A DNA stretch of 64,000 nt, from NCBI GenBank assembly GCA_903822545.1, contig CAIJPN010000178.1, positions 1 to 64,000 on the forward strand. Reading direction: 5' to 3'. The position numbers and the translations under genes are program-made. Positions 11,206 through 47,343 of this stretch are shown piece after piece. Below the pieces are notes generated by a model that ran no database searches, was not told where the DNA came from, and saw nothing but the letters and a program-made list of their open reading frames with translations. The number at the start of each line of letters is the position of its first letter. Within the stretch, counting starts at the first letter, position 1. This DNA is from an uncultured Anaerolineae bacterium. GTDB taxonomy: Bacteria; Chloroflexota; Anaerolineae; Anaerolineales; Villigracilaceae.

Positions 11206-11234
11206 GTAGGGGCGAGCCGATGGCTCGCCCCTAC
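11206..11234. repeat. GTAGGGGCG-type palindromic repeat
   Basis: GTAGGGGCGAGCC, loop GAT, GGCTCGCCCCTAC: a perfect 13-bp stem. Nearly identical in plan to the copy inside lutC at 41832-41860. A T-run does not follow, so it reads as a REP-like element rather than a terminator. Confidence 0.85.
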
Positions 11235-11242
11235 AAATTTCT

Positions 11243-12592
11243 ATGGAACAACTTATCCAACTCACCCTCACCACCCTCGCCTACGGCGGAGAAGCCATGG
11301 GGCGCCACGAAGGCCGCGCCATCTTCGTACCCTTTGGCCTGCCCGGCGAAATCGTCCGCGCCCGCATTGTCGAAGAACGCAAAAACTTCGCCCGCGCCGA
11401 ACTGGTCGAAATCGTCAAGCCATCTCCTGACCGAATCACACCCAAATGCGCGCATTTTTTCTCCATCACCCCTAACCCCTCTCCCGCGGGGAGATGGGAA
11501 CTCCCCCCTCCCCCCACGGGGGAGGGGCCGGGGGTGAGGGCCTGCGGCGGCTGCCACTACCAGATGCTGCCCTACCCCGCCCAACTGCGCGCCAAAACCG
11601 AAATCCTGCGCGACCAACTCACCCGCATCGGCAAAATCCAAAACCCGCCGGTCAAAAACATCGTCGCATCACCAAATGAGTGGAATTATCGCAACCACAT
11701 TCAATTCCATCTGGATAAAAACGGCAAATTGGGTTTTATCGCAGCCAGAGCCGCTTCCGCCATCGGGCGCGGGGCCGACGCTGGAGAAATCCGCCCTGAA
11801 TCCGTCATCCCGATAAATGAATGCCACCTCCCCGAAACGCCCATCAACGCCCTGTGGCCGACCCTCGAATTCGAACCAGATGCCCCCATCGAGCGCGTCT
11901 CGCTGCGCGCCGGGGACGAGTTGATGCTCATCCTTGAATCTGACTCCCCCGAAGCGCCAGAAATGGAAATTGAAACTGACATCTCCGTCATTCACCTGAC
12001 CGAAGATGACGCAGTCGTCATGGCTGGCGAAGACTACCTCGTCATGGAAGTGCTCGAGCGCTCGTTCAAAGTTTCAGCCGGGTCGTTTTTCCAGGTCAAC
12101 ACCCCAATGGCCGGGAAAATGATCCAACACCTGCTTGACCAGCTCAAAGTCAACAAAAAATCCACGGTTCTGGTGGATGTATATTGCGGCGTCGGCCTGT
12201 TCAGCGCCTTTTTCGCGCCCAAAGTCGCCCGCCTGATCGGCATCGAAACAGCCATCTCATCCTGTAACGATTTTGCCGTCAACCTGGATGAATTCGACAA
12301 CGTGGAACTCTACGAAGCCGACGCCGAAGAAGCCCTGCCCGCGCTGGATGTGCAACCCGATGTCGTCATCGTCGACCCGCCGCGCGCCGGGTTGGATAAA
12401 ACCGTTATCGATGCATTGGTGGCACTCAAGCCCAAAACACTGGCCTACGTCTCCTGCGACCCATCCACCCTGGCACGAGACGCCGCCCGTCTGCTGGCAG
12501 GTGGATTCCATCTCAAGCAGGTCACGCCCTTTGATCTCTTCCCGCAAACCTATCACATAGAAAGCATCAGTCTTTTCGAACACAAAATCTAA
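11243..12592 (+). CDS. RlmD/TrmA-family rRNA uracil-5 methyltransferase with internal insert
   Basis: 449 residues. TRAM domain (1-60), Fe-S cysteine region, SAM-binding motif (VDVYCGVGLFSAFF), and catalytic C405 in YVSCDPSTLARD after VIVDPPRAGLDK. The family methylates C5 of a uridine in rRNA (23S U1939 for RlmD). Family members have C-x5-CGGC. Here C69 and C101-G-G-C104 are 31 residues apart because a GC-rich palindrome adds ~26 codons in frame; the fourth Cys lies in INECHLPE. The reading frame is otherwise intact, so it is probably expressed. Confidence 0.88.
   Translation: MEQLIQLTLTTLAYGGEAMGRHEGRAIFVPFGLPGEIVRARIVEERKNFARAELVEIVKPSPDRITPKCAHFFSITPNPSPAGRWELPPPPTGEGPGVRACGGCHYQMLPYPAQLRAKTEILRDQLTRIGKIQNPPVKNIVASPNEWNYRNHIQFHLDKNGKLGFIAARAASAIGRGADAGEIRPESVIPINECHLPETPINALWPTLEFEPDAPIERVSLRAGDELMLILESDSPEAPEMEIETDISVIHLTEDDAVVMAGEDYLVMEVLERSFKVSAGSFFQVNTPMAGKMIQHLLDQLKVNKKSTVLVDVYCGVGLFSAFFAPKVARLIGIETAISSCNDFAVNLDEFDNVELYEADAEEALPALDVQPDVVIVDPPRAGLDKTVIDALVALKPKTLAYVSCDPSTLARDAARLLAGGFHLKQVTPFDLFPQTYHIESISLFEHKI
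11463..11540. repeat. CCCTCACCCC-type palindromic element inside rlmD-like gene (copy A)
   Basis: A 78-nt segment running CCATCACCCC ... GGGGTGAGGG, with two internal G/C hairpins. Its length equals the 26 extra codons between the first and second Fe-S cysteines. It encodes a Pro/Gly-rich peptide including NPSPAGRWE and PTGEGPGV. Related copies lie at 28881-28960 and 47265-47343. Confidence 0.85.
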
Positions 12593-28579: not shown

Positions 28580-28605
28580 ACTCCAAAATCAGGAGATTTT
28601 GGAGT
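28580..28605. terminator. Bidirectional terminator overlapping the tlyA stop
   Basis: ACTCCAAAATC / GATTTTGGAGT with a 4-nt loop and flanking A/T tracts. The tlyA stop codon (28589-28591) lies inside it. Confidence 0.88.
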
Positions 28606-29461
28606 CAGAGAGAGCTTTATCCACCAGCGCAGCGATGTCTGCGCTGTTTTTATGCAGGTCCAGCCAGGCCAGGAACTCGGTGTTGCCTTTGGGGCCGAGC
28701 AGTGGTGAGCGGACGAGTCCACGCACTCCCAGGCCGAGTTTTTGGGCAAAAGCCAGCACATCCAACAGCACCTGGCGATGCACCGCCGGATCGCGGATGA
28801 CGCCTTCACCTTTGGCCGTCAGCTTGCGCCCGGCCTCGAATTGGGGCTTGATGAGGGTGATGATGTTGCCATCACCATTCCCCTCACCCCCTACCCCTCT
28901 CCCGGTGGGAGAGGGAGGCAGACTCCCTTCCCCCGGCGGGGGAAGGGTTGGGGATGAGGGCAAGAACCAGTTTTTCATTCCTGGCAGCAGGATTTTCAGC
29001 GAGATAAACGAGGCATCGCAGACCACCAGCTGCACCGGCTCAGGGATGGATTCAACGTAGCGGGCGTTGGTTTCTTCCATGACGATAACGCGCGGGTCGT
29101 TGCGCAATTTCCAGTGCAAGATGCCTTTGCCCACGTCGATGGCGTAGACCTTCGCTGCGCCGTGTTGCAGCAGGCAGTCGGTGAAGCCGCCAGTGGATGC
29201 GCCCACATCTACAGCGGTAACTCCGGCTACGTTAACGGGAAACGCTTCCAGGGCGGCGAGGAGTTTTTCTCCGCCGCGCGAGACAAAGCGCGGGCCAGAA
29301 TCCACAGCCAGGGTAACGGTTTCATCAAAAGCCGCCGAGGCTTTATCCACCATTTGGCCGTTGACGCGCGCCTGCCCGGCCATGATGATGGCCTGGGCTT
29401 TGCTGCGGCTTTCGGCCAGTCCACGCTCTACGAGAAGGATATCGAGACGGGTTTTGGACAT
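28589..29461 (-). CDS. tlyA: TlyA-family rRNA 2'-O-methyltransferase with internal insert
   Basis: 290 residues from ATG 29461. N-terminal S4 RNA-binding domain (RLDILLVERGLAESRSKAQA), then an FtsJ-like Rossmann methyltransferase: DVGASTGGFTDCLLQHGA, YAIDVGKGILHWKLR, CDASFISLKILLP, IKPQFEAGR. TlyA methylates 2'-OH of cytidines in 16S/23S rRNA. Between MKNWF and GNIITLIKPQFE the protein has ~27 extra Pro/Gly-rich residues (~168-194) encoded by a GC-rich palindrome; homologues have a short loop there. The frame stays open. Confidence 0.9.
   Translation of the reverse strand: MSKTRLDILLVERGLAESRSKAQAIIMAGQARVNGQMVDKASAAFDETVTLAVDSGPRFVSRGGEKLLAALEAFPVNVAGVTAVDVGASTGGFTDCLLQHGAAKVYAIDVGKGILHWKLRNDPRVIVMEETNARYVESIPEPVQLVVCDASFISLKILLPGMKNWFLPSSPTLPPPGEGSLPPSPTGRGVGGEGNGDGNIITLIKPQFEAGRKLTAKGEGVIRDPAVHRQVLLDVLAFAQKLGLGVRGLVRSPLLGPKGNTEFLAWLDLHKNSADIAALVDKALSDSKIS
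28881..28960. repeat. CCCTCACCCC-type palindromic element inside tlyA (copy B)
   Basis: Starts CCCTCACCCC and ends GGGGATGAGGG, with two internal hairpins (CCTCTCCC/GGGAGAGG and CTTCCCCC/GGGGGAAG). Same plan as 47265-47343 and 11463-11540. It is translated as a PTLPPPGEGSLPPSPTGRG-type peptide. Confidence 0.88.
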
Positions 29462-29463
29462 CT

Positions 29464-29730
29464 TTAGCTGAGTTTTTTGAGCGGCATAGTCTGCGGCCCC
29501 TGGCAGAAAATGCATTCCGTGATATGACCCTGGGCGTCGAAGGAACCCAGCCGGAAAACCATCTGCGGCTCGATGGGCACACCCAGTTCGAGATTTGCCA
29601 TCCCGTAGCCTTTGCGGAAGATGGTTTCACCATCTTTGACAACGATCACTGCCGCGCCGGGCTTATCTGCCGGGTAGAGCGGGGTGAGCAGGGCTTCAAA
29701 TTGTTCCAGTAATTCAGGGGAAAGTGTCAT
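29464..29730 (-). pseudogene. N-terminal fragment of a serine beta-lactamase-like hydrolase
   Basis: 88 codons. Residues ~22-60 (KPGAAVIVVKDGETIFRKGY, then ANLELGVPIEPQMVFRLGS) match the N-terminus of class C beta-lactamase-like serine hydrolases, which continue with the SxxK nucleophile. Here homology stops exactly at FRLGS, and a short unrelated tail containing ECIFCQG follows. The catalytic domain is gone, so no hydrolase activity is possible. It lies between tldE and tlyA. Confidence 0.75.
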
Positions 29731-41693: not shown

Positions 41694-42392
41694 TCAATCG
41701 AACGCTACAGTCAAGTTCTTAACCATAATCCACACATGCAGATTCTTCGGTCCATGCACGCCGAGGGTGACGGTCAGTTCAATATCGGCAGTGCGGCTGG
41801 GGCCGGTGATGAAAACGAGGTAATCGGGGGTGTAGGGGCGAAGCGATGCTTCGCCCCTACCGATATGTTCGGCAAAAACCTGGTGCAGGTCGGGGCGCAG
41901 CATTTCGGGGCGGACGATGGCGAGGTGGAGGCGCGGCAGCAGCGAGACGGCGCGCGGTTTTTCGGCGGAGGATGCCAGGACGAGGGTGCCGGTTTCTGGC
42001 AGGATGTATTCGGCTTCGGTGATGCCGAGGTCGCAGTGGGCCATTTCGTGTTTATCGGCATTGGGGGAGATGATGTCAACTGCCAGGCTGCGGAGGGTGT
42101 TTTCAATGCCGAGTTGTTCAAATAACGGGGTGTGCCAGAGTGTCGCTTTGCGGATTCCATTTTTAGCGACGAGAGCTTTCAGGGCATCTGAAACAGAATC
42201 AGCGGAGAGTTTTTCTGCCACGCCGGAGAGTTTGCGAACTTCATCAAGGAATTGCTCGATTTCGGAATCAACAGATTCGGGGCGACGTGACTCGTAGATG
42301 GCGGGACGCGGGCCAAGCCCCCTACGGGGATTATAGGGCGGTCTTTGTCCACCTAAAGAGCGGCGAATGTTTTCGATAACGGGATTGGTCAT
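41694..42392 (-). CDS. lutC: LutC-like LUD-domain protein with palindrome-encoded insert
   Basis: 232 residues. LUD fold: ATLWHTPLFEQL, ITEAEYILPETGTLVLASSA, SLLPRLHLAIV, VFITGPSRTADIELTVTLGV, HGPKNLHVWI. It is the LutC partner of L-lactate oxidation to pyruvate. Residues around HIGRGEASLRPYTPD are encoded by a 29-nt perfect palindrome (41832-41860); family members have a shorter link between the helix and the ITGPSRTADIE strand. It is the last gene of the leftward lut/AOR unit. Confidence 0.88.
   Translation of the reverse strand: MTNPVIENIRRSLGGQRPPYNPRRGLGPRPAIYESRRPESVDSEIEQFLDEVRKLSGVAEKLSADSVSDALKALVAKNGIRKATLWHTPLFEQLGIENTLRSLAVDIISPNADKHEMAHCDLGITEAEYILPETGTLVLASSAEKPRAVSLLPRLHLAIVRPEMLRPDLHQVFAEHIGRGEASLRPYTPDYLVFITGPSRTADIELTVTLGVHGPKNLHVWIMVKNLTVAFD
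41832..41860. repeat. GTAGGGGCG-type palindrome inside lutC
   Basis: GTAGGGGCGAAGC, loop GAT, GCTTCGCCCCTAC. Same length, loop and outer arms as the intergenic copy at 11206-11234, but here translated in frame. Confidence 0.88.
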
Positions 42393-47264: not shown

Positions 47265-47343
47265 CCCTCACCCTCCGCCCTCCCCCGGTGGGGGAGGGGA
47301 CTCTGCTCCCTTCTCCCGCCGGGAGAAGGGTTGGGGATGAGGG
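47265..47343. repeat. CCCTCACCC-type palindromic element between moaD and AOR (copy C)
   Basis: Begins CCCTCACCC, ends GGGGATGAGGG, with hairpins CTCCCCC/GGGGGAG and CTTCTCCCG/CGGGAGAAG. Intergenic copy of the family found inside rlmD-like and tlyA genes; it lies between the moaD stop and the AOR ribosome site. Confidence 0.88.

Follow-up and report, generated by a model that had tools for sequence, protein, structure and literature searches.

Protein-coding palindromes are a textbook feature of Rickettsia and Wolbachia, and sporadic intragenic REPs occur elsewhere. The Rickettsia palindromic elements (RPEs), as described in the portions of the literature consulted (Ogata et al. 2000, reviewed in PMC2229807 and PMC10969869), measure 105-146 bp and belong to an AT-rich alpha-proteobacterium. 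The guanylate kinase of Rickettsia conorii, which holds an RPE, is translated and active, with a changed affinity for its substrate (PMC2229807). Some REPs of the GTAG and CGTC families are also intragenic, and in recB of X. campestris and X. oryzae different REPs lie at about the same site (PMC3733652). Here we describe a palindromic repeat that recalls both systems, found within an rRNA methyltransferase gene of an uncultured Anaerolineae bacterium. The window is the whole stretch analyzed, 64,000 nucleotides of contig CAIJPN010000178.1, and its relevant features are given below with the evidence for each in brackets.

11243..12592, + strand: RlmD/RumA-family 23S rRNA (uracil-C5)-methyltransferase gene, 449 aa, with in-frame insert (ORF, profile, structure model)
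11447..11449, + strand: codon of C69, first cluster-ligand position (invariant in 50 homologues)
11463..11540, + strand: 78-nt double palindromic element, translated as residues about 74-100, SITPNPSPAGRWELPPPPTGEGPGVRA (sequence, family alignment, folding)
11463..11472, + strand: left terminal tag CCATCACCCC, family consensus CCCTCACCCC (alignment of copies)
11476..11498, no strand assigned: hairpin 1, CCCCTCTCCCGCGGGGAGATGGG (sequence, family consensus)
11504..11527, no strand assigned: hairpin 2, CCCCCTCCCCCCACGGGGGAGGGG (sequence, family consensus)
11531..11540, + strand: right terminal tag GGGGTGAGGG, inverted copy of the left tag (alignment of copies)
11543..11554, + strand: CGGC codons (C101-C104), second and third cluster-ligand positions (invariant in 50 homologues)
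11822..11824, + strand: codon of C194 (ECHLP), putative fourth cluster ligand (invariant in 50 homologues; ECHLP in 21 of 21 inserted genes)
28881..28960, no strand assigned: second double copy, in frame in a TlyA-like (S4 + FtsJ) gene, ORF 28592-29626 on the - strand (element search, ORF, Pfam)
47265..47343, no strand assigned: third double copy, apparently intergenic, adjoining the start of an aldehyde:ferredoxin-oxidoreductase-like ORF on the - strand (element search, ORF)

The host gene belongs to the RlmD family. Its protein scores 254.6 bits against the cut-off of 183.55 bits for the equivalog model TIGR00479 and falls below the cut-off of the narrower model NF009639. Its Pfam domains are TRAM and tRNA_U5-meth_tr (uracil-C5-methyltransferase), and its closest sequence relative in the PDB is E. 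coli RumA (1uwv). An AlphaFold2 model (pLDDT 86, pTM 0.86) matches E. coli RumA 2bh2 with a target-normalized TM-score of 0.84 and is a confident RumA fold apart from residues 72-102, the insert, where pLDDT is below 50; on this model the insert is probably a disordered loop. Cysteines C69, C101 (codon 11543-11545), C104 (11552-11554) and C194 are invariant among 50 homologues and make up the four-cysteine set of RlmD. The E. coli enzyme (1uwv, 2bh2) is thus alike in fold, cysteines and family score; it differs in the spacing of the first two cluster cysteines, 5 residues where the window protein has 31. The window gene therefore departs from the C-x5-CGGC spacing of RlmD, by an excess of 26 aa or 78 nt. 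The reading frame at 11243-12592 stays open across the palindrome, and it confirms what the first-pass annotation had reported, namely a separation of 31 residues between C69 and CGGC and a stop-free 78-nt palindrome with two hairpins, which proved to be two tagged hairpins in inverted orientation. Directly upstream of rlmD, at 11206-11234, and again at 41832-41860, the window carries perfect GTAG-tagged palindromes (GTAGGGGCGA...TCGCCCCTAC) of the classic REP type, distinct from the element; zero such palindromes are expected by chance.

The element is GC-rich, lies between cluster ligands C69 and C101 and is free of stops in the rlmD frame. The smallest unit combines a hairpin, CCCCTCTCCC-n3-GGGAGAGGGG, and an asymmetric tag, GGGGTGAGG. 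The form of ~78 nt is composed of two such units, inverted relative to each other, and the tags at its two ends constitute 10-bp terminal inverted repeats, one of two MITE characteristics; aligned double copies read CCCTCACCCC-n3-CCCCTCTCCC-n3-GGGAGAGGGG-spacer-CCCCTCCCCC-n3-GGGGGAGGGG-n2/3-GGGGTGAGGG. Single units, consisting of a hairpin with a one-sided tag, are also common. In an alternative to the two hairpins, the whole element folds as one long imperfect palindrome (DNA z -3.1; as RNA -60.6 kcal/mol, z -5.1), a stability equaled by 0 of 200 shuffles. The flanks of 39 copies showed no consistent target-site duplication, the second MITE characteristic, but just a weak CG outside the tags, with no close empty site for comparison. 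Single units favor [AT][CT]T before their untagged end, with T at -1 in 38 of 55, a modest site preference which the RlmD inserts fit. Units can also be arranged in tandem: in an array at L028:1162-1327 (G000 C183), two near-identical single units of 43 nt come after a double element, with CGTTTTT/CGTCTTT as linkers.

The window insert is one copy of a multicopy repeat family. A DNA search of its own genome with the element gave 60 hits at about 38 other places (best identity 87%), and a strict unit pattern matched 105 units there, against 0 for a reversed control. Units were found in 129 of the 152 genomes of the bacterial family, ranging from 0 to 193 per genome, with 193 in genome G004 and 0 strict units in the sister genus g17. 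The relatives named in these comparisons are Anaerolineales/Chloroflexota metagenome assemblies. A further repeat, a MITE of ~170 nt with the terminal inverted repeat AACTCAAGTTGCTACCTT and an apparent TTAA target duplication, occupies contig ends of G000 (L201-L220); it contains a related double hairpin, and many contigs of this assembly break at it.

Most double copies lie inside genes. Taking an open frame to be at least 130 aa running through the element, 32 of 39 double copies from the own genome were in open frames, and 28 of the 30 element-bearing frames scanned had a Pfam domain, which argues that the family behaves like RPEs and not like extragenic REPs. The genes concerned include alanyl-tRNA synthetase, UvrA, ThyX, CofD, NAD kinase, a radical SAM protein, a GlcF-like Fe-S oxidoreductase, asparagine synthase, GlnD/GlnE, UDP-GlcNAc 2-epimerase, a P-type ATPase and TlyA, among others, and in many of them the Pfam domain alignment crosses or breaks at the element. 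For 13 such genes, protein sequences were compared with the orthologues of three relatives that hold 0-2 units; these are without the element at that place and usually have a short loop there. The likeness to RPEs that had been drawn from the window alone is therefore apt, given at least 28 Pfam-recognized genes with the element in frame and its absence at the compared sites in element-poor relatives. Lengths and coding status, tallied by hand, gave a multiple of three in 16 of 27 coding copies where one third is expected (p 0.005); lengths that are not multiples of three also occur in frame, and in those copies the flanking bases must differ. A single unit is likewise in frame in a formylglycine-generating-enzyme-like gene (L215:1-163, G000 C47; GANPSPSGRGAGVRAYPWGNEW). 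At L025:416-496 (G000 C132) the element stands directly after the CxxxCxxC of a radical SAM protein, a second insertion beside Fe-S ligands.

The TlyA loop that holds the copy at 28881-28960 is informative as to where such inserts accumulate. Most of 29 relatives have differing Pro/Gly/Glu-rich stretches there instead, several resembling other repeat families, and REEREEK-type inserts also occur. These sequences suggest that several repeat families may use one TlyA loop, and a loop so variously filled implies that variable loops in general collect such inserts.

We surveyed the loop of 105 RlmD genes, drawn from the bacterial family with a few added from the order. Exact C-x5-CGGC was found in 84; homologues do not, then, generally share a similar loop lacking the palindrome, the prospect held up against insertion in the first-pass annotation. 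The remaining 21 genes have 8-30 extra residues, all at one point after CxHF, giving 13-35 residues between cysteines 1 and 2 in the 20 besides the window gene. Hairpin or tag identifies the element in 17 of the 21, and the majority read HFFSPLPxGEGxGVRxCGGC. With canonical relatives and a multicopy family, the view that a repeated palindrome entered a conserved gene in frame between two Fe-S ligands is supported; the accompanying question, whether only this lineage has the insert, is answered in the negative, with 17 element-like inserts at the same point. On a maximum-likelihood RlmD tree computed without the loop, where change counts carry no direction, a minimum of 15 changes accounts for all 21 rows and a minimum of 13 for the 17 element-like ones, with 5 in genus g9 and 2 in g18. 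Forcing the inserted genes into a single clade is rejected (p-AU 9.1e-5), and one ancestral gain would require 38 losses, each restoring a five-residue loop, which favors gain over loss. On these trees and alignments, the RlmD loop appears to have been hit independently about a dozen times in the family.

Host genomes of inserted RlmD genes carry a median of 45 strict units versus 5 for the others (Mann-Whitney p 1.8e-7), and 18 of 19 versus 26 of 82 have at least 15 units; with relatedness removed by independent pairs the figures are 5.1 versus 0.1 (median p 0.06), a trend that is only suggestive. No polymorphic strain-level pair was found, so no insertion has been seen in the act, and the exact junctions are uncertain since the nearest relatives with an empty site share only 60-80% protein identity. 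The two canonical loop residues beside the insert are unrecognizable in inserted genes. Two RlmD genes have a second in-frame palindrome-like insert, HSPLPVGEGLG near alignment column 185 in L165 (G126) and PLTGAGVR near the N-terminus in L049 (G004). In L056 (G056), from another family of the order, the loop holds a 28-residue insert from a different palindrome (CCCCCCGTAGACGGGTGGG...CCCCCGTAAACGGGGG), and unrelated palindromes may thus use the RlmD site.

We consider it probable that the insert is a copy of a non-autonomous REP/BIME-like palindromic repeat of Anaerolineales, which goes into genes as well as between them, is tolerated in surface loops and has hit RlmD about a dozen times. A small repeat of this kind would be copied or moved enzymatically into single- or double-stranded DNA, the family presumably being in active transposition. 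Insertions of total length 3n in surface loops would add about 12-28 residues, mostly Pro, Gly and Glu, and survive; such tolerance is expected because several frames of the element are stop-free and their coding is rich in these residues. The RlmD loop between the first and second cluster cysteines would be one such tolerant place, where the extra residues may bulge out as a disordered loop in the gap that separates ligands one and two. Each of the 21 inserted genes retains all four cysteines, and on that conservation the 4Fe-4S cluster is most likely kept. Of the two outcomes initially entertained for the cluster, tolerance of the loop is accordingly the likelier to judge by the ligand cysteines, and loss the less likely. 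Methyltransferase activity would then be retained, and the insertions would be neutral or nearly so. Translational bypassing of the hairpin was considered as well; since the inserts keep the frame and contain no stop, it is not needed, and the idea was dropped.

It should also be considered that tolerance may be only part of the explanation. Under uniform insertion with a 7-nt target in these genomes, 0.004 to 0.04 insertions would be expected against the at least 13 counted, a calculation which assumes uniformity and ignores selection and hence speaks only against uniform insertion. The recurrence at RlmD is difficult to explain by tolerance alone, because intergenic DNA, the most tolerant of all, is not comparably enriched. 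What sets RlmD apart is a strictly conserved empty state, a position between metal ligands, and an invariant insertion point and orientation. We tentatively raise the possibility, to which we give somewhat less than an even chance, that the cluster loop is a true preferred landing site, with sequence- or structure-specific insertion around CAY-TTY...TGC-GGC-GG. If so, this would explain the same base and same orientation in many lineages, and a mobile repeat would be repeatedly remodeling an Fe-S motif.

Fewer insertions would suffice if the inserted allele had then spread between species by short-tract homologous recombination; inserts of different genera do have an identical register and repeat F-[FYH]-S ahead of the element, which might point that way. 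We regard this as unlikely. The RlmD gene tree follows genera, so the tracts would have to be very short, and the inserts track the element load of the host genome. The window insert, moreover, is double and resembles the other double copies in its genome (87%), not the relatives' single units, so it at least represents a separate event.

If the insertion had happened just once, long ago, in a common ancestor, with the element later decaying in some lineages and being precisely lost from many, this would account for the position, orientation and frame (HFFSPLPxGEGxGVRxCGGC) that the inserts share, and those of L048, L051 and L057 do look decayed. Such a history is nevertheless improbable: it costs 38 losses against 15 changes, the single clade is rejected, and all 84 of 84 empty loops are exactly five residues, which repeated imprecise deletion would not give. 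The inserts also differ in structural form, from a full double (G000) to a fully tagged single (G004) and a single with an untagged left end.

We find it just as improbable that the insertion wrecks the cluster motif, leaving a gene that is becoming a pseudogene or an enzyme working without its cluster. A gap of 31 residues between ligands is certainly unusual, some TrmA-family enzymes have no cluster, and by structure comparison related enzymes such as SpRlmCD share the fold. Against this, the four cysteines and the catalytic domain are conserved throughout the inserted genes, whose frames are intact, and a search of the same genome for a second RlmD-like gene found none. Finally, an assembly artifact or a native loop palindromic by coincidence is scarcely credible, even in a genome assembly fragmented into 237 contigs, given that independently assembled genomes of many genera contain the family, that dozens of conserved genes have it in frame, and that the reversed-pattern control is empty.

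A repeat of Anaerolineales that is tolerated in surface loops would have consequences beyond this gene. Throughout a whole family, free-living Chloroflexota carry protein-coding palindromes in core genes. The RlmD site offers about a dozen natural replicates of one insertion, with close empty relatives, and these make it testable whether repeats choose their sites or selection simply filters them, and how far a metal-cluster motif can be stretched before it fails. Annotators should be aware that Pro/Gly-rich stretches inserted in Chloroflexota proteins, PSPLPPGEGxGVR for example, can originate from a repeat.

In the open-licence literature we found no earlier description of the unit sequence or of the peptide PLPPGEG, nor, for Chloroflexota palindromic repeats (RepRanger included), of intragenic insertion. 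Apparently new within that literature are the occurrence of the family in Chloroflexota, the extent to which it loads core genes and the roughly dozen separate hits at one codon. The TIRtron repeats associated with TIRYTs (PMC3733652) are similar in that they are palindromic, form dimers, and have ends to which the tag GGGGTGAG fits as GGGGWSAS; this sequence match is a lead only, and a Y1 transposase gene with the element as its terminal repeats was not found in the loci examined. REP/BIME sequences of the GTAG- and CGTC-tagged superfamilies (PMC3733652) resemble the element more fully, having a hairpin with an unpaired tag, singles and inverted dimers, and dozens to hundreds of copies, and the window family is indeed a short, tagged, multicopy hairpin in both arrangements. 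The tag, however, is CCTCACCCC/GGGGTGAGG and not GTAG or CGTC; among reported variants of the CGTC tag is CCTC (PMC3733652), to which there is a likeness in letters. The family also differs in not being extragenic, with about four fifths of its double copies (32/39) in open frames, and in not adjoining RAYT genes here: at 34 Y1_Tnp loci in 15 genomes, units adjoin at most 2-3, none as a flanking pair. RAYT was rejected as the mobilizer, Y1_Tnp (PF01797) genes being present also in the element-free genomes G118 and G120, and the flanks of these genes in general carrying other repeats. With RPEs, as far as the consulted portions of PMC2229807 and PMC10969869 describe them (Ogata et al. 2000), the family shares multicopy palindromes in frame in conserved genes of unrelated function, and an insert that is translated while the host keeps the gene, which is here read from open frames. 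Those portions do not describe many independent insertions at one codon. The window family fits the RPE pattern of palindromic, multicopy, in-frame repeats and differs in sequence and host, being 78 nt long (single units ~35-45 nt), GC-rich and of Anaerolineales in the Chloroflexota. Fitting neither definition in full, the element works like an RPE without being one, and it is built like a REP/BIME.
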